Assembly (NCBI GenBank): GCA_005116745.1
Contig: SWDS01000003.1
Location: 1 to 64,000, forward strand
Source of the DNA: Nitrospira sp.
GTDB taxonomy: Bacteria; Nitrospirota; Nitrospiria; Nitrospirales; Nitrospiraceae
Direction: 5' to 3'
Length of the DNA: 64,000 nt
Under the pieces are notes generated by a model, which did not search any database, had not been told where the DNA came from, and worked only from the letters and a program-made list of their open reading frames with translations. Each line of letters opens with the position of its first letter. Position 1 is the first letter of the stretch. Positions 2,335 through 11,044 of the stretch are shown one piece after another. Made by a program: the position numbers and the translations under genes.

Positions 2335-3510
2335 TCAGCTGGCAGTTCGGGCGAGTCGGTTCCGAGAGGGATGCAGCCAGGGGAGATGATCGGTCGCAGG
2401 GAGAAACACACCGGCATAGAGCGATCGCGCCTGTTTCGCTAGGTTCTCACCCTGCTCCTGTTTCCCCTGTTCCATGAGGAGCAAGGCCTCTTTCGCGAGC
2501 TGCTCGAACGCGAGGGCATCCACCCAACACAGCGTCTGGTTCAACGACAGGCGATTCTCCTGCAGCGTCACGGCCTCCTTGTGTTTCAGGAGAACACGCA
2601 GTCGATTCAGCTCCGTCGTGAGCGCCTGGTAGGCCTGGGCGCCATCAGACTCAGGCCAGAGCAGGTCGCAGAGCGTCTCGGCCGGCACCTGCTGTCCCCC
2701 ATGGGCGACGATCGCTTGTAACAACGCCAAGGTCTTGCGCGGAATCTTACGTCCAAACTGAAGCGGCTGGTCATTCACGAGAATCTCGAACTTCCCCAAC
2801 GTGTACACGTTAATCGCCCAGGGCCAGGCCGTGGAGTACCGCGCGATCCCGACCGGCTTGATCTGCAGATTCCTGATGAGCGAGCGAACAAATTTCGGTT
2901 CAATCTGCTCCTCCAGCGCCCGCACCAAAATTCGCGTGGCCTCGTCCGGTCGCCACCAAGGCAGATAGTGTTGCTCCGTCTCGGCAGCCAATGCCAGCCC
3001 CGCTCGTAAGGCCATGAGTCCATCCGATTCCCGCCCCGCATCGAGGTCCAGGCGCGCTGTGGCCAAGAGCCACAAGCACCGTTCATACGTATTGCGAGGA
3101 GAGTTCCGAACCTGCGCGTCAATAGTGGCTAAATGTTTCCGCGCTTCCTCGTCGTTCCCCAGCGCATGACAGGTCATGGCCCATCCAACCGTCCCATCCA
3201 CCTCGCCGATAGGACATTGCGTACCGGCAATCAGCTTGTCCGCCTGCTCACACTCACGCCAGGCTAACTGGAAATCCTCGACCAGATACGCCTGCCACGC
3301 CGTGAGAAAGTGCAGAAATCCACGCTGAAATGGGGCGAGTTGGTCGCGCAACGGGTTCACCATGGCGAGATACCGTTCAGCCTCCTGGGGACGGTTGAGC
3401 ATGAGACGCGTGTACACCCCTTGTCCCGAGGCCCATCCAATCAGGAAGTAGATCCCCTGTGCGTGGCACTGCTCGATAATCCGGTCGGTCATGGCCAAGG
3501 CCCGATCCAT
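2335..3510 (-). pseudogene. C-terminal half of a broken SARP/BTAD-type regulator
   Basis: This 391-residue frame continues the gene that starts at 5324. It contains TPR-like helical repeats, then an OmpR-like winged helix typical of SARP regulators (start VYTLGKFEILVNDQPLQFGR, about residues 230-310), then a bacterial transcriptional activation domain to the end. Upstream of the internal ATG at 3510 the same frame stays open and reads on naturally (PPPLAQLLRDYAEGHTFWG) as far as the C6 run at 3572-3577. The half is therefore separated from the N-terminal half only by a one-base deficit. Translation from 3510 alone would give a DNA-binding/BTAD protein without the ATPase. Confidence 0.7.
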
Positions 3511-5324
3511 GTCACCTCTACCCCAGAAGGTATGTCCTTCCGCATAATCGCGTAGAAGCTGAGCCAGGGGTGGGGGGAGTCTCCCAGTCGGTTCCGTATC
3601 CTTGCAGAAAAGTGGTTCTTGGCGGGATGGTTCGTTCCTGTATGAAGATCAATGTGCGCACTATGGGCGTAGGCCTGGGCCAACGAGAAGGGATCATCAA
3701 TGGACGGGAGCAGCCGGTCCAGTTCTTCTCGCACAAACGGGATCAAGGAGGAGCCAATCTGGTGCCAGGTCAAGACCCCTAAGACGGCCGTGAGAAATTC
3801 GAACCGAATGGGAGCGGGCATGTCGGCGGGCATATTCTTCAGCCACCTCTCACCAATTTCCATCCATGGATCGACTCGGCCAAACTGGTCCCAGGAATTG
3901 ATAATGGCCTTGACGACTCCGGCCCACGCCAAGACCTGTCCAACTAACTCGCCGTTGGCTTCAAACAGGCGATAGGCTTGCTCGTGCTGTGCGCGGATCT
4001 GCTCCAGCGCGGCCGCATTGACCGGCGGGGTGGCGCAGGCTGACCAATGCACAAGCCATGGATCATTCGCACGGTGTTCCGATGGGATCGTCTGGAACCA
4101 CCGCTGGATGAGCGCAAAGCGGCCTTGACGCAAGAGATTCGGCGCATGGGAGATGATGGCCTGGGCCACAGCATCATGGTCTTGCACGTCTATAGACAGA
4201 TCGACTGCGGCTTCGACCTGACCGTCTGTAGCAAGGAGATGGGCGGTTGTGGTGCGCAGGGCGACGAGTCGCTCTGGCGACCAGTGCTGTCGGAGCCGAT
4301 GCCGGAGAAAATCCTGAAGCAAGGGGTGATAGGTGTAAGACGCCGGAGTTCCATCATGCCGCTCGACAAAGTAGCGCCGCCGATAGAGTGTCTCCAAGCA
4401 AGATTCGGCGTCACGATGCCCCGACAACTCCGTGGCCATGGGTCCCGTGATGACAGGACAGTAGGCTGTCGAGCACAACACCTCTTGCGTGCTCACATCC
4501 ATGTGCGCAAAGACCTCTGCACCGAGATAGTTGAACATCGCCTGGCGGGATTGTTCGCGGCCCGTCAGTGTGGTTTTTGATCCGGTAGCCTCTTCCAGGA
4601 GCAAGACCAACCCGGCCATCCACCCATCGAGTGTGGCTACGGCTTGGGCCAGTGTCTTCTCGGCAGTGGCGTCGCGTCGGCGAGACCGGTACAGGGCGAT
4701 GATTGCGCGGCTTTCCGCCGGTGTGAGACGCAGCAGGTGACCATCGAATACCGTCATGCGACGCGATGCCAGCAGATGGGCCCATGCCGGTGGCGGCGCT
4801 TCACGGCTGATGATCACCACCGAACGTTTCGCAGCCAGGTGGCTGAGTCCCAGCGCCAACATCTCATGGACAAGGCTGTCGGCTGGAATTGTTTGGTAGT
4901 TATCCAAGACCAGCGCGACGGATCTCGGCAATTGCGCGTCGAGCGCCTCGAAGACATTGCGCGTGAACACGGACACACCCTGCAAATACTCCGGCGTCAG
5001 ATGGGGCAGCAGCGGACTCTTCCTCGGCGCAAGCGGACGCGCCGCGAGACTGAGATAGTGAAAGAACGTCGCCAGATCCCCGTCCCGCTCGTCCGCCGTA
5101 TACCAGAGGGGTCGCAGGCGACGTGCATGCAGATAGCTCGCCACCAAGGTTGTCTTGCCCGCACCTGGTGGGGCAGCGATCCAGATGATGGGGCGGGTGC
5201 GGGCGCGATCCAGTTCGCGAAACAACCGTGCACGGGGCACGATCTTCGGCAACCTCGGAGGCGTGAGTTTGCTCGGGAGTGGCCGATTCCGACCAGGGGT
5301 CGGCGGATCTATCGGCTTCGACAT
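3489..5324 (-). pseudogene. N-terminal half of a broken MalT/LAL-like ATPase regulator
   Basis: The start chosen is the ATG at 5324, preceded by AGGAAC at good spacing. The longer upstream frame has no ribosome site. The product has a P-loop (APPGAGKTTLVASYLHAR, about residues 53-70), an NB-ARC/NACHT-like ATPase region and TPR-like repeats, as in MalT/LAL regulators. The frame goes out of register at the C6 run (3572-3577) and ends on a short unrelated tail at 3489. Adding one C there fuses it with the downstream frame into a protein of about 1,000 residues. The signal sensed is unknown. This is either a real inactivation or a homopolymer sequencing error. Confidence 0.7.
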
Positions 5325-5637
5325 GGTCTTGTTCCTAATGAATAGTTTTTCGGATCGTGCCACAGCGAGACGCGCGCTCGCAAGCAGGAGCAAGCTGAGG
5401 GAACAGTCCACCAACATCACTTTCAAACGTGTGAAGCGTCATCCGCGTCTGAAACACAAGGGACGAGAGTGCGGCCTTTTTGAACATCGTAACGGTATTG
5501 TGACGTTTGTCTGCACAGGTAGCGTCAGCAACGGTACCGGGAGTCTTTCAATTGCGCACCGCAGAGTAACGCCTACTGCGGTGACTCATTCTCCTTTCCC
5601 ACCACGCGCAGAACAACACTGTTTGCTTAGCGACGTG

Positions 5638-5673: not shown

Positions 5674-6822
5674 TCAGCCCTTCTTCCGATTCGCCAGGTG
5701 CCCGGATCGCACCTGGCAAGCCAGGACGTCGCAGATCACCCTGGTGGCCATGAGGCTCGTAATCTCCGCCGCGTCGTAGGGCGGTGAACATTCCACGATT
5801 TCCATGCCAGCCAGCGGTTTCGTGTCGGCGATGATCTGGAGAAACTTCAGCACTTCACGCGGGAGGAACCCGCCCGGCTCCGGCCAACCGGTGCCCGGCA
5901 CAAATGCGGCATCCAAGCAATCCACGTCGAAGCTGAGCCACACCGCATCCACCCCATCAAACGCCACTTCGAGCGCCTGCTTCGCCGCATTCTCGATGCC
6001 CATTTCCACGCAGTCAGTGACAGTCATGATGCTCGTCTGACGCTCCCGCCCGGCCTTCACGCCGGGTCTGGGCGCTTGCCAGCCACCGATGCCGATCTGC
6101 ACAAGATTCTTGGCGGGTACATTCTGAATATTCGTCGCGTGAAACCAGGGCGTGGTGTGCATGCGTTCGTCGAGATCGGTCTCCTGTGTGTCGACATGCC
6201 GATCGAAGTGAAGAATCCCGAGCTTCTTGCCGTTCATATTCTGAGCCACGCCCCGCACGGTCGCAAATCCCAGAGAATGGTCCCCACCCAAAACCACGGG
6301 AAAGGCCCCGCTGGCATAGACATGGCCGACCCCTTTGCTGACTTGGTCGAAGGTCTTCTCGATGTTGCCGGGGATGGTGAACACGTCACCGAGATCGCAC
6401 ATGGAGATCGACTCTCTGAGATCCACGCCGAGCTCGAAGCTATAGCTGCCATACAACGCAGAGATCTTTCGAATGCCTTGGGGGCCGAATCGAGTGCCTG
6501 CCCGATAGGTGGTTCCCCCGTCGAACGGCGCCCCGAGAATGGCAACATCGTATTCCCCGCACTTGCGGACATCTTCGACATACGGCGCTTTGGTGAAGGT
6601 ATTGATGCCCGCGAAGTGCGGGAGCTCTCCACGACTAAAAGTGGGAATGCGGCGATCTTTGATGGAATCAGCCCCTTGCAGACCCAATTCAAGACCTCGG
6701 GCCACTTCTTCTTCATATTTCGTGGTCGGCAACAGTGCCTCTGCTTCCACGGCGAACTTCGCCTCCGGCCCGTACTTGTCATGCAGTGGAACCTTGCCTT
6801 GGTATGTTCTCTTCTTTGCCAT
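5674..6822 (-). CDS. gdmH: guanidine hydrolase (ureohydrolase family)
   Basis: The 382-residue protein belongs to the arginase/agmatinase superfamily. The metal ligands are visible as GGDHS (H182), HFDRHVD (D207, H209, D211) and SFDVD (D299, D301). The long N-terminal extension, the HFDRHVDTQE variant and the TGWPEPGGF loop (W313) match my recollection of the Ni-dependent guanidine hydrolase group (Synechocystis Sll1077 type, also in comammox Nitrospira), which makes urea and ammonium from guanidine. The strongest context evidence is the upstream permease with a guanidine-I riboswitch. AAAGGAGC precedes the ATG. Agmatinase or guanidinobutyrase activity is the alternative if context is ignored. 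No HypA/HypB-like nickel chaperone genes lie nearby. Confidence 0.88.
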   Translation of the reverse strand: MAKKRTYQGKVPLHDKYGPEAKFAVEAEALLPTTKYEEEVARGLELGLQGADSIKDRRIPTFSRGELPHFAGINTFTKAPYVEDVRKCGEYDVAILGAPFDGGTTYRAGTRFGPQGIRKISALYGSYSFELGVDLRESISMCDLGDVFTIPGNIEKTFDQVSKGVGHVYASGAFPVVLGGDHSLGFATVRGVAQNMNGKKLGILHFDRHVDTQETDLDERMHTTPWFHATNIQNVPAKNLVQIGIGGWQAPRPGVKAGRERQTSIMTVTDCVEMGIENAAKQALEVAFDGVDAVWLSFDVDCLDAAFVPGTGWPEPGGFLPREVLKFLQIIADTKPLAGMEIVECSPPYDAAEITSLMATRVICDVLACQVRSGHLANRKKG

Positions 6823-6905: not shown

Positions 6906-8384
6906 TCATTCTTCAGTTGCGGTCGACTCCCGTGGACTCGGCGGGGCGTCGCTCCTTGTCGATCTCCCGACCAGGAGATACAGCGTGGTCACACCGAGGA
7001 TACCTCCGAGAACCAGCGGGACAGCCCAGAGTTGCCACCAGGGGGCATCAGGCGACACGGCATAGGGGCGCGGCCACGCGATGTTGACGAATTCAAAAAG
7101 CGACCAGAGAAACGCTGCGATATTGATCAGCAATCCCCACGAGCCGAGTTTCAGTTGACCTAACGAAGGGTCCCAGCGCCCTGTGAGACGGGTGTACAGT
7201 CCCACACCCGTGGTCATCGCAAACATGGCGTACAACCCGCCCGTGCCAAAGGCTAACACCGTGGCGACGGCGTCATCGTTGAGACCGAACAGCAATCCCA
7301 GGGTGGCCAGCAGTACTGTGAACAGCACGGCGTTCCGGGGAGCCCCTGCAGCAGTGACCCGGCTGAGGATGGCCGGCATACTGCCTTCGCGAGCCATGGA
7401 AAACACGATCCGGGAGGTGTATTGGACCATGGATGACCCGCAAGCCAGAAATGCGACCATGACAATGGCCAGAAACGGGGTTTCGGCCCAGGCACCAAAG
7501 TTGGCGACGATCACGGGTGTGACAGGATCGGATGCGGCGCTCGTCTGCTGTAAGGTCTCGCGGCTGAAGCTGAGGGTCAGGGCGGCGGAGTTAAAGAGCA
7601 CCACGCTTCCCACCATGCAGAGAGAGAAAAAGATGGCACGCGGCACCATCCGTTTGGGCTCGTGCGTTTCTTCGGCGATGGTCGAGCAGGCATCGAAGCC
7701 GATGAACGCCCACCCAGAAATGGCAAGCGCCGCGAGAAACGCCGCGGTCTGGCTGGGGGCGGTCCCTGTCCCAAGATGAGCGAACAGTTCGGAGAAATCA
7801 TGCTGCCGGAAAAAGAAAAATAACAGCAGCGCGACGCCGAACGAGCCGACGATTTCCGCATAGACCCCCAGGGAAATGAGGAACTTGAAGACCGAGACGT
7901 GGACCAGATTGAGGACAGTACAAACCAGCAGAAAGACCGCTCCCCATATCACGAGGGTGACTCCTGTTCCACCTCCTGACCCGAAAAAAATAGCCAGCCA
8001 GACCCCGCCGGTATAGGCGGTCGTGGTGAGCATGGCGATCGTGGAGCTGACGTAGATGGCTCCGGCGTACGTGCCGGTGGTGGCACCTCCGAGCTGTCGC
8101 GCCCACTTGTATGCACCTCCCGCGATCGGTATCTGCGAGGAGAGCTCCGCATACACGGTCGCGACTAGCAACTGCATCACCAAACAGAGCGCCAGTGCCG
8201 CGAACCACCCGCCACCTGTGACGATTGTCTGCACACCGATAATGGCGTAGAGCCCAGCAACCGGCGAAACCGTTGCGAAGCCGATGGTCAGGCTGTTCCA
8301 GAGACTGAGGCTGCGGTGAAGTGTCTCGGGACTACCGGAAGCGGGAGGTGTACGCACCATCCCTGGATCGTCATGACCTACCAT
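6906..8384 (-). CDS. APC-superfamily permease, probable guanidine importer
   Basis: This is a 492-residue, very hydrophobic protein with about 12-14 membrane segments, starting after a short cytoplasmic tail. The motif FATVSPVAGLYAI in helix 1 is typical of amino acid/polyamine/organocation transporters. The start was set at the ATG at 8384 because it overlaps the stop of the riboswitch-controlled leader ORF. An ATG at 8360 is the alternative, and an upstream in-frame start would lie inside the riboswitch. It is the first full gene behind the guanidine-I riboswitch and is followed after 83 bp by guanidine hydrolase, so import of guanidinium for degradation is the natural inference. Substrate is not readable from the protein itself. 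Confidence 0.8.
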   Translation of the reverse strand: MVGHDDPGMVRTPPASGSPETLHRSLSLWNSLTIGFATVSPVAGLYAIIGVQTIVTGGGWFAALALCLVMQLLVATVYAELSSQIPIAGGAYKWARQLGGATTGTYAGAIYVSSTIAMLTTTAYTGGVWLAIFFGSGGGTGVTLVIWGAVFLLVCTVLNLVHVSVFKFLISLGVYAEIVGSFGVALLLFFFFRQHDFSELFAHLGTGTAPSQTAAFLAALAISGWAFIGFDACSTIAEETHEPKRMVPRAIFFSLCMVGSVVLFNSAALTLSFSRETLQQTSAASDPVTPVIVANFGAWAETPFLAIVMVAFLACGSSMVQYTSRIVFSMAREGSMPAILSRVTAAGAPRNAVLFTVLLATLGLLFGLNDDAVATVLAFGTGGLYAMFAMTTGVGLYTRLTGRWDPSLGQLKLGSWGLLINIAAFLWSLFEFVNIAWPRPYAVSPDAPWWQLWAVPLVLGGILGVTTLYLLVGRSTRSDAPPSPRESTATEE

Positions 8385-8455
8385 GTGCAACCACTCTGAC
8401 AGGTCAGGTGGTCTGATTGATGCGATGGGGAAACAACGAAGCGAGGTAGTTGCAT
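8378..8455 (-). CDS. 25-codon leader ORF in the riboswitch expression platform
   Basis: A short frame starts at the ATG at 8455, seven bases after a perfect AGGAGG (8463-8468). It ends with TAG at 8378-8380, overlapping the permease ATG at 8382-8384. The peptide is not obviously functional. The arrangement looks like translational coupling: ribosomes load at the leader's strong site and hand over to the permease start, which has no good site of its own. It is inferred only from spacing and overlap. Confidence 0.5.
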   Translation of the reverse strand: MQLPRFVVSPSHQSDHLTCQSGCTW

Positions 8456-8485
8456 AACAAGGCCTCCTGCTGGAAGGTGTGATTC

Positions 8486-8625
8486 CCAAAAGGCCATGTA
8501 CCTGCGTACATGATCTCCCGGGCTTTTATCCCTCCGTGGAGCCTCGTGATGCGAGGCCGAAAACTCTTGGACCAGACGCTCTCTCCTAACAAGGAAGAAA
8601 GCCGGAACCCTAGTTTTCCTTTTGG
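8486..8625 (-). promoter_or_regulatory. guanidine-I (ykkC) riboswitch
   Basis: Read on the minus strand, the conserved guanidine-I blocks occur in order. CTAGGGTTCCG is at 8603-8613, CTGGTCCAAGAG at 8564-8575, a GCCTCG/CGAGGC hairpin at 8541-8557, and the ACGGAGGGATAAAAGCCCGG block within 8514-8537, which ends CCCGGGAGA. The outer 8-bp helix can form between 8618-8625 and 8486-8493 (CCAAAAGG with CCTTTTGG). The 3' strand of that helix can alternatively pair with the leader's AGGAGG region (8461-8468 with 8488-8495), hiding it. Ligand binding would then favour the outer helix and free the ribosome site. A 7-bp hairpin lies between at 8495-8512. Confidence 0.9.
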
Positions 8626-8856
8626 AACAATTTTTACGAATCCTATTGTCTCGCCATACCAAAGTCAAGTTTCTGGATGCACCCACATGCTTACCATGAC
8701 TCCGCATCTGTAGCCTTCTCTATATCCTCTCTCTCCTTCTGATCATCTACCATGAAGATAATGAGACTTCATCCGTAGCCTTGCTTCGATTGACTTTTTT
8801 TGCCCAGGGCGAGTAGGGTCCATTTTTGAAACAGTCCTTGTGAAGGAGGGAGTCGG

Positions 8857-9573: not shown

Positions 9574-9929
9574 GATCCAGAGTTTTGTATGTTGCAGATG
9601 AAGCGGTTGAAGGAAATCCTGAGGCGGCTTCAGCAATCGTCGCTGCCGGGAGCTTGTACATGTGCGCGTGGTTGCGGTGATCAGTGGTCTTGTTGCCTGG
9701 CAAAGCGGCACAAGAGGCCGTGCTTGGCCAGGCCTTGGCCATGACCTTCTTGTTAGGCCCCCCATATCTCCCCGCCGCCTACCTTTTGGAAAAACGAGCC
9801 CAGACTCTGCTGCACGATCGTCTCTCTCAACAATCCGTGCCGACGCCAGAAGAACGGCTCAACAACCATCGCCCCTTCCTCGCTCTTCGGCATTATTTCC
9901 CTCAGCTCCGGCTCATCCGCCAGACTTGA
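9574..9929 (+). pseudogene. decayed copy A of a small membrane-protein gene
   Basis: This stretch aligns with 11117-11349. Both contain LQM(K/R)RLKE, then AASAI(V/L) with a following CAWLR- or GAWLR-like end, then (Q/H)EAVL..ALA(M/I)T. In copy A a one-base deletion after RLKEIL shifts the frame, and an in-frame TGA follows AWLR. Its downstream part is open from 9684 to 9929 and overlaps the lipase 3' end on the other strand. The gene is therefore a broken duplicate of an unidentified small membrane protein. Confidence 0.45.
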
Positions 9930-10725
9930 GTGCGCTTCCAATATGCTCCACGTAGTGCCGCATCGAATGATCTTTGAGCCCATCGGAGCCCGGCTTGAGG
10001 AAATCCTCCATGCGTCCCTTGACGCGCTCAAGAAATCGATCCCAGAAATTGATGTCCGTCTGAATCTTTCCTGCAGTGTCAATGTAACAAACCTCGCCGC
10101 TGTGAGCGTAGCCGAGCACGCGTGGTGCGACGCGGGTGACCGTGTCGTTGTTGTTGACGAAGCGGAAGTGCTGCCCAGCTAGACGCCGAGCGCACTCGGT
10201 CGCGAAGATCTCGTCGCCGATACGAGGCTGGCCAAACGTATACAGCCCATTCACCGTATGCCCATCCACCAGCAACTGAGCCGCCGCCACAACCGCTAGC
10301 GCCCCACCAAGACTGTGGCCGGTACACCAGAGCGACTGCGGGTGGCTCTTGTCGCGCAGTCGCTGGATTGCGCTCAACAGGTCGTCCTTGACCAGTTTAA
10401 ACGCGCCTAGAAAGCCTTGATGCACTTCGCCCAGCGGGCCTTGTACTTTGTGGAATTGAGCGTCCGCCAGCAAGTCCCGGAGATGCGTCGGCTCAGTGCC
10501 TCGGAATGCCACAATGATGATATCGTCATTCGCGGCGATATACCCTTCCGTGTCTCGTCGACTCAGAAATTCGAACTGATTCAAGCCGAGCTTGGCCACT
10601 GCCGGTTGAATGGTGGTCTTATCCTGATAAGCGATCTGTGCAGCCAGTGCAAGCCAGTAGGCGTTGTTGAGACTGTAGGCCGTGGCGTGTGATTCAAAAA
10701 GGACTTTTGATAGTGTGGTGGTCAT
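9913..10725 (-). CDS. class 3 lipase-family alpha/beta hydrolase
   Basis: The protein is 270 residues from the ATG at 10725, which is preceded by GGGAG; an ATG at 10740 and longer starts are possible. It has the nucleophile elbow GHSLGGALAVVAA, the Lipase_3 strand IIIVAFRGTEP before it, and a later FGQPRIGD block with the acid region NNNDTVTRV and a C-terminal histidine (DHSMRHYVEHI). These match fungal-type lipases (PF01764) that hydrolyse acylglycerols or related esters. No signal peptide is seen from the chosen start, so location is uncertain. It is transcribed against the two homologous decayed genes on either side. Confidence 0.8.
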   Translation of the reverse strand: MTTTLSKVLFESHATAYSLNNAYWLALAAQIAYQDKTTIQPAVAKLGLNQFEFLSRRDTEGYIAANDDIIIVAFRGTEPTHLRDLLADAQFHKVQGPLGEVHQGFLGAFKLVKDDLLSAIQRLRDKSHPQSLWCTGHSLGGALAVVAAAQLLVDGHTVNGLYTFGQPRIGDEIFATECARRLAGQHFRFVNNNDTVTRVAPRVLGYAHSGEVCYIDTAGKIQTDINFWDRFLERVKGRMEDFLKPGSDGLKDHSMRHYVEHIGSALKSGG

Positions 10726-11044
10726 GACTGGGACTCCCATGAGAGGCCATAGGTGATAGGCTTTCCTGTGCTGAATCGCGACAGGGGTTTGATACATGGC
10801 GCAGCAACTATTGTGCCGCTGATCAAGCTATGCGAAAGCACTGATAGGGGGAGATTTTCTCTGAGCGATCACGAGTGATCAAGACGAGTAAGAATCGAAA
10901 TAGATACATAGAACGAATCCAAATGGATACGCTCGACAACAATCCATCAGGGCCTATGCATGACACATTTATTTTGATGTGAGCGGAACTATTCTAGACT
11001 TACGGTACGCAATAGTGGTTGTGTCCATCGTCAATGTGCACGCC

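Follow-up and report, generated by a model that had tools for sequence, protein, structure and literature searches.

Guanidine-I riboswitches (ykkC subtype 1), which carry an adenosine at a position that is a pyrimidine in subtypes 2a and 2b (PMC6031431), have been described as usually transcriptional (PMC12186494). The published operon of N. inopinata runs in the order riboswitch, APC permease, guanidinase; its switch was called a transcriptional suppressor, and guanidine raised operon mRNA about 6-fold (log2 2.6 to 2.7) in metatranscriptomes of activated sludge (PMC11410670). At the ppe2 B12 switch of M. tuberculosis, expression of the next gene needs translation of an upstream ORF (uORF) and proceeds mainly by termination-reinitiation (PMC11260477). 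The literature searched, the coverage of which was incomplete, yielded no report of a guanidine-I switch that operates via a leader ORF.

We analyzed a 64,000-nucleotide stretch of a Nitrospira contig (SWDS01000003.1), referred to here as the window. An AMO-family gene was found in its genome and the public collection lists its named relatives as Nitrospira, which together indicate that the window belongs to a comammox-type Nitrospira. Its guanidine locus has the following features.

8513 to 8624, minus strand: guanidine-I (ykkC subtype 1) riboswitch aptamer (RF00442, 91.7 bits, gathering threshold 63, E = 3e-15)
8453 to 8468, minus strand: leader start site, Shine-Dalgarno AGGAGG plus AUG (AGGAGGCCUUGUUAUG), in 47 of 48 Nitrospira loci, with a somewhat variable Shine-Dalgarno
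8378 to 8455, minus strand: 25-codon leader ORF, MQLPRFVVSPSHQSDHLTCQSGCTW and stop (ATG at 8455, TAG at 8380 to 8378)
8378 to 8384, minus strand: stop/start overlap ATGGTAG, 7 nt (permease ATG at 8384 to 8382, leader stop at 8380 to 8378)
8389 to 8413, minus strand: hairpin GACCAC...GUGGUU around the permease's own Shine-Dalgarno (GAGTGG, 8391 to 8396), window version read by eye
6906 to 8384, minus strand: APC-family permease, putative guanidine importer (PF13520, 2.8e-35; operon position as in N. inopinata)
5674 to 6822, minus strand: guanidinase, arginase/ureohydrolase family (PF00491, 8e-76)

No second Rfam family, other ykkC-type families included, matched over the aptamer, even at E ≤ 1, and the gene context argues for subtype 1. 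Genes for guanidine transport and degradation lie downstream: the APC permease and a guanidinase-like protein that matches the solved chain 9fek_A with 848 bits over 381 residues. The record label of 9fek is “Putative agmatinase 2”; we infer that it is the N. inopinata guanidinase from the description of a crystal structure in PMC11410670, a point on which the label is silent. From the family match and the operon, the window RNA is predicted to bind guanidine. A class 3 lipase (PF01764, 1.2e-27; 9913 to 10797, minus strand) lies upstream of the guanidine operon, and downstream of the guanidinase is a 645-aa ORF (3489 to 5426, minus strand) with a subthreshold AAA_16 match (24.7 bits) that, judged by eye, resembles a MalT-type regulator.

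The earlier note, made from the letters of the window, had placed CCAAAAGG at 8625 to 8618, CCTTTTGG at 8493 to 8486, GGCCTTTT at 8495 to 8488, and AGGAGGCC at 8468 to 8461, all of which are correct on the minus strand. The perfect ribosome site and the 25-codon ORF overlapping the permease start that it described are likewise present. With its own Shine-Dalgarno and a stop that overlaps the next start, the leader ORF has the features of the uORF in a ppe2-type relay and, by analogy with that M. tuberculosis switch, looks like a ribosome relay. Its dN/dS is about 0.7 (0.70) and identical in frame +1; with no frame preference, codon use gives no direct sign of translation, and selection on the leader peptide, for which there was no clear evidence, was set aside. 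Since the peptide sequence lacks clear conservation, the act of translation is the likelier function. At the window locus, the leader would presumably be translated, and its translation would be needed for permease expression. The leader frame is open upstream across the entire aptamer, 109 codons to an ATG (8378 to 8707, minus strand), and the permease frame is open upstream back to 8489 (minus strand).

A match was found in 47 of 147 genomes, all of the window's genus, and 48 loci made up the Nitrospira comparison set. In 38 of these (37 by script and L026 read by hand), the leader ORF runs 4 to 11 nt past the permease start, and the overlap is kept despite leader lengths of 23 to 30 codons and the use of both nonzero frames. 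Eight loci have the leader in frame with the permease (fused); in one (L030) the leader start site is deleted, and one (L028) ends too early and is unreadable. The frame change that fuses leader and permease in L005 accompanies loss of the permease's own ATG (ATC) and amounts to a switch, made by nature, to initiation at the upstream site. In a quick tree of the permeases, five fused loci fell in one clade and L078, on the L005 contig, apart from them; fusion thus arose at least twice in Nitrospira. L030 (G007) and L056 keep the aptamer with the Shine-Dalgarno and leader ATG deleted; in the same genome, the end of a contig carries a second, partial riboswitch match (L049), and there is a further copy of the permease (L098).

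Scanning genomes with the permease added loci from Nitrosomonas, Nitrosospira, and Nitrosovibrio. RF00442 was present in all 20 of the first set scanned as well as in L095 and L128, and the remaining ammonia-oxidizer loci were recognized by the aptamer's 3' motif. The permease begins directly at the aptamer-adjacent site in 14 of the 31 ammonia-oxidizer loci (by script), 7 (the Nitrosospira group) have an ORF of 54 to 123 aa that overlaps the permease start, and in the other 10, either the leader ORF terminates before reaching the permease or the start of the permease is unclear. The overlapping ORFs (L103, L097, L112, L110, L123, L089, and L095) end 4 to 14 nt past the permease start, and Nitrosospira leader ORFs differ widely in sequence and length. 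In most Nitrosomonas loci, the same start site begins the permease directly, without a leader. The relay thus appears to occur in comammox Nitrospira and again in Nitrosospira-type ammonia oxidizers, and most Nitrosomonas members appear to have the switch without the relay.

These variants bear on the claim that the aptamer acts through a leader peptide, which a leader broken in aptamer-keeping relatives would refute. The leader is indeed fused or lost in 9 of 48 Nitrospira loci and absent in most Nitrosomonas; yet all but one of these loci start the permease at the same site, which supports the start site as the target of control.

The strands that could exert this control are as follows.

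8538 to 8551, minus strand: aptamer P2 loop and 3' strand CAUCACGAGGCUCC, the proposed OFF-state anti-start-site strand, covarying with 8453 to 8467 in two phyla
8515 to 8522, minus strand: P3 3' strand CCCGGGAG, OFF partner of CUUUUGGG (OFF helix 3, paired in 94% of cells and without double changes)
8495 to 8512, minus strand: hairpin CAUGUAC-GCAG-GUACAUG between aptamer and platform, common to the ON and OFF folds
8618 to 8627, minus strand: P0 5' strand (UUCCAAAAGG), paired in all Nitrospira relatives examined
8484 to 8493, minus strand: P0 3' strand (CCUUUUGGGA), of which CUUUUGGG (8485 to 8492) switches in the OFF state to pairing with the 3' strand of P3

In the predicted OFF folds, the leader start site is sequestered by the 3' strand of P2 (GGAGGG with CCUUCC), and CCCGGGAG pairs with CUUUUGGG, enclosing the CAUGUAC hairpin. 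The P2 3' strand is CAUAACGAGGCUCC in most loci and covaries with the entire leader start site, start codon included. Over 46 Nitrospira sequences, 96.4% of cells in the OFF hairpin are paired and three pairs are doubly compensated (0 of 500 shuffles; kinship ignored), for example in L029 (A-U to G-C) and L033 (C-G to U-A); with one compensated cell per pair, and kinship ignored, these represent few independent events. When P2-strand and start-site 9-mers were joined across the two phyla, 42 distinct sequences gave 4 pairs and 15 cells with double compensation (0 of 500 shuffles for cells and 9 of 500 for pairs; kinship ignored). Swapped partners pair worse in Nitrospira and in ammonia oxidizers (p ≤ 0.0002 in each; kinship ignored). 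In L092 (Nitrosospira multiformis Nl7), whose start site follows the aptamer motif at a distance of about 58 nt, the start codon is GUG, and the paired aptamer strand has CAC in place of CAU. The printed ammonia-oxidizer folds, leaving out L102, have the same kind of long hairpin as judged by eye. A translational platform entails an OFF fold in which the start site pairs, and covaries, with a strand of the aptamer, as is the case here. The claims that the platform is translational rather than terminator type and that the leader's start site is its control target are well supported by comparison of the 48 Nitrospira and 31 ammonia-oxidizer loci.

Free-ensemble calculations favor the OFF helix, with a mean probability of 0.89 over 45 loci, and nearest-neighbor energies place the ON fold about 12 kcal/mol above OFF. 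In the single best fold of the window, the partner of the start site is the 5' half of the aptamer, although the OFF helix retains an ensemble probability of 0.68. Native linkers are more stable than shuffled ones (mean z of −3.6), but in one Nitrospira subgroup the difference is unremarkable (L012, z of −0.8). For the comparison of ON and OFF, we imposed explicit P2 and P0 pairs; a constraint that merely forced CCUUUUGGG to pair upstream could not separate the states, as it pairs upstream in both. The start codon is predicted to be unpaired with a probability of 0.06 in OFF versus 0.52 with P2 and P0 forced. The Shine-Dalgarno is modeled as unpaired at 0.19 in both states, and this lack of opening in the forced ON fold is a real weakness of the switch model. 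The hairpin over the permease's Shine-Dalgarno, in its common form CAGACCU:AGGUCUG, is paired in 91.7% of cells with 2 double changes (39 of 500 shuffles), and that Shine-Dalgarno is unpaired at 0.27 versus 0.34 in shuffles. This hairpin is suggestive only; it was too weak to be retained as the main gate.

The earlier note had a more specific model, in which CCUUUUGG toggles between P0 (CCAAAAGG:CCUUUUGG), closing the aptamer, and an anti-Shine-Dalgarno helix, GGCCUUUU:AGGAGGCC. Both 8-bp helices are only mildly unusual in one sequence (a Watson-Crick helix of that length joins 5' flank and linker in 1.3% of shuffles, and a partner for AGGAGGCC, G-U allowed, arises in 2.4%), and the weight rests on conservation. 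P0 held up in Nitrospira, with compensatory changes (swap test p = 0.002; 4 doubly compensated cells, 0 of 500 shuffles; 46 sequences, kinship ignored). In 27 ammonia-oxidizer and 2 further Nitrospira loci, its own pairing (−5.28) was no better than swapped pairing (−5.30; p = 0.51), for which reason it was rejected as a general feature; it does pair in L080, L082, and L126. Ammonia oxidizers keep the OFF hairpin without P0. The helix GGCCUUUU:AGGAGGCC is pairable in most relatives (93.5% of cells), but it has 0 compensatory changes, 500 of 500 shuffles are equally good, and it occurs in none of the printed folds (7 species), which use another partner. For its lack of compensation we rejected this helix as the OFF helix; covariation with the start site was seen instead for the 3' strand of P2 in the aptamer. 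The toggle as originally drawn is improbable even with both helices present in the window and P0 covarying. A mainly transcriptional switch, in which Rho-dependent termination or decay follows from the long OFF hairpin or from untranslated RNA behind it and the leader ORF plays no part, is somewhat less remote, though still unlikely. It would agree with the roughly 6-fold mRNA response in activated sludge and with the usual mode of the class. However, no intrinsic terminator with a U-run occurs between aptamer and permease (the sole scan hit is the start site's local stem, with tail CCTTGTTATG), and the strand that covaries comprises the start site together with its AUG, which would be superfluous for a terminator. 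The rise in mRNA fits translation-dependent stability or Rho polarity and equally a transcriptional switch; Rho polarity after loss of translation would yield the same change.

Two further readings concern the leader itself. The riboswitch-controlled AUG could be the ancestral permease start, with the leader a frame-shifted, decaying N-terminal extension tolerated by coupling: the window's permease frame extends upstream without a stop, most Nitrosomonas use that AUG for the permease, and in-frame fusion arose at least twice in Nitrospira. We consider this doubtful, since the overlap survives the changes in leader length and both nonzero frames and the second AUG is preceded by a Shine-Dalgarno. 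That the leader peptide is itself a sensor (an arrest peptide or attenuator) is very improbable: it is short, precedes a transport operon, and has a recurring PDQSDLLPSQRGL-like stretch, but it lacks purifying selection in its own frame, and its Nitrosospira counterparts vary widely.

A translational ON switch with a leader-ORF relay is, in our judgment, probably the best explanation of the locus. Without guanidine, the aptamer's 3' half (from the P2 3' strand through the P3 3' strand) would fold onto the linker as one long hairpin and bury the leader's Shine-Dalgarno and start codon. Guanidine would keep P2 and P3 folded as in the aptamer, which P0 additionally closes in Nitrospira; with these strands held, invasion would not occur and the start site would be released. 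Ribosomes could then translate the leader, terminate within the permease start, and at the overlap either reinitiate or melt the hairpin that covers the Shine-Dalgarno of the permease itself; the permease and, via the operon, the guanidinase would thus be made. Comparative data support the aptamer, the operon, the covarying OFF hairpin, and the start/stop overlap; we infer the ligand response of the window RNA, kinetic escape from the stabler OFF fold, leader translation, and coupling. As the ensemble strongly prefers OFF, guanidine would have to act cotranscriptionally, while part of the linker is still to be made, or by way of binding energy missing from the model. More tentatively, and with slightly greater doubt than belief, we speculate that the gene is reached only through the ribosome relay, the switch controlling a leader ORF whose peptide is immaterial and termination-reinitiation at its stop signaling the permease.

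If this is true, control of a comammox guanidine operon so far described under a transcriptional suppressor would lie in translation initiation, with an aptamer strand as the start-site blocker. It would give a clear prediction for how nitrifiers turn on guanidine use, account for an odd conserved short ORF, and bring a second ligand into the small set of riboswitches acting via an upstream ORF. Natural variants (fused, relayed, and deleted) make the relay directly testable. The translational platform is probably not peculiar to nitrifiers. Among other Proteobacteria, read by eye, L135, L154, and L157 have terminator-type linkers (T-runs), and L139, L141, and L151, from the same proteobacterial class, have linkers folded against the aptamer as far as the start site. 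Sequestration of the start site may be widespread among proteobacterial guanidine-I loci, which would leave the relay, not the translational platform, as the distinctive part.

Among known systems, guanidine-I (ykkC) switches with terminator platforms (PMC12186494) share the aptamer family and the predicted ON logic, whereas here the start site is sequestered, there is no U-run terminator, and a leader ORF lies between sensor and gene. The N. inopinata operon has riboswitch, permease, and guanidinase in the same order, and the text that calls its switch a transcriptional suppressor does not contain the terms “leader,” “Shine-Dalgarno,” or “expression platform” (PMC11410670). The ends of the PRPP aptamer, also ykkC type, pair as P0 and are linked to the platform (PMC6031431); that aptamer belongs to another ligand class, and in the present case P0 surrounds an additional hairpin and its maintenance is confined to the guanidine-I loci of Nitrospira. 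In the SAM-II riboswitch of Sinorhizobium metA, a Shine-Dalgarno within the riboswitch similarly governs translation from a start codon further downstream; that system is an OFF switch whose AUG1 and AUG2 are separated by a terminator, with AUG2 in frame and no overlapping ORF (PMC9373788). The M. tuberculosis ppe2 B12 riboswitch with uPPE2 likewise masks the start of a short ORF that overlaps the next gene (PMC11260477). It responds to cobalamin as an OFF switch, established experimentally, whereas the present locus is a predicted guanidine ON switch supported by comparative evidence, in which the blocking strand belongs to the aptamer.
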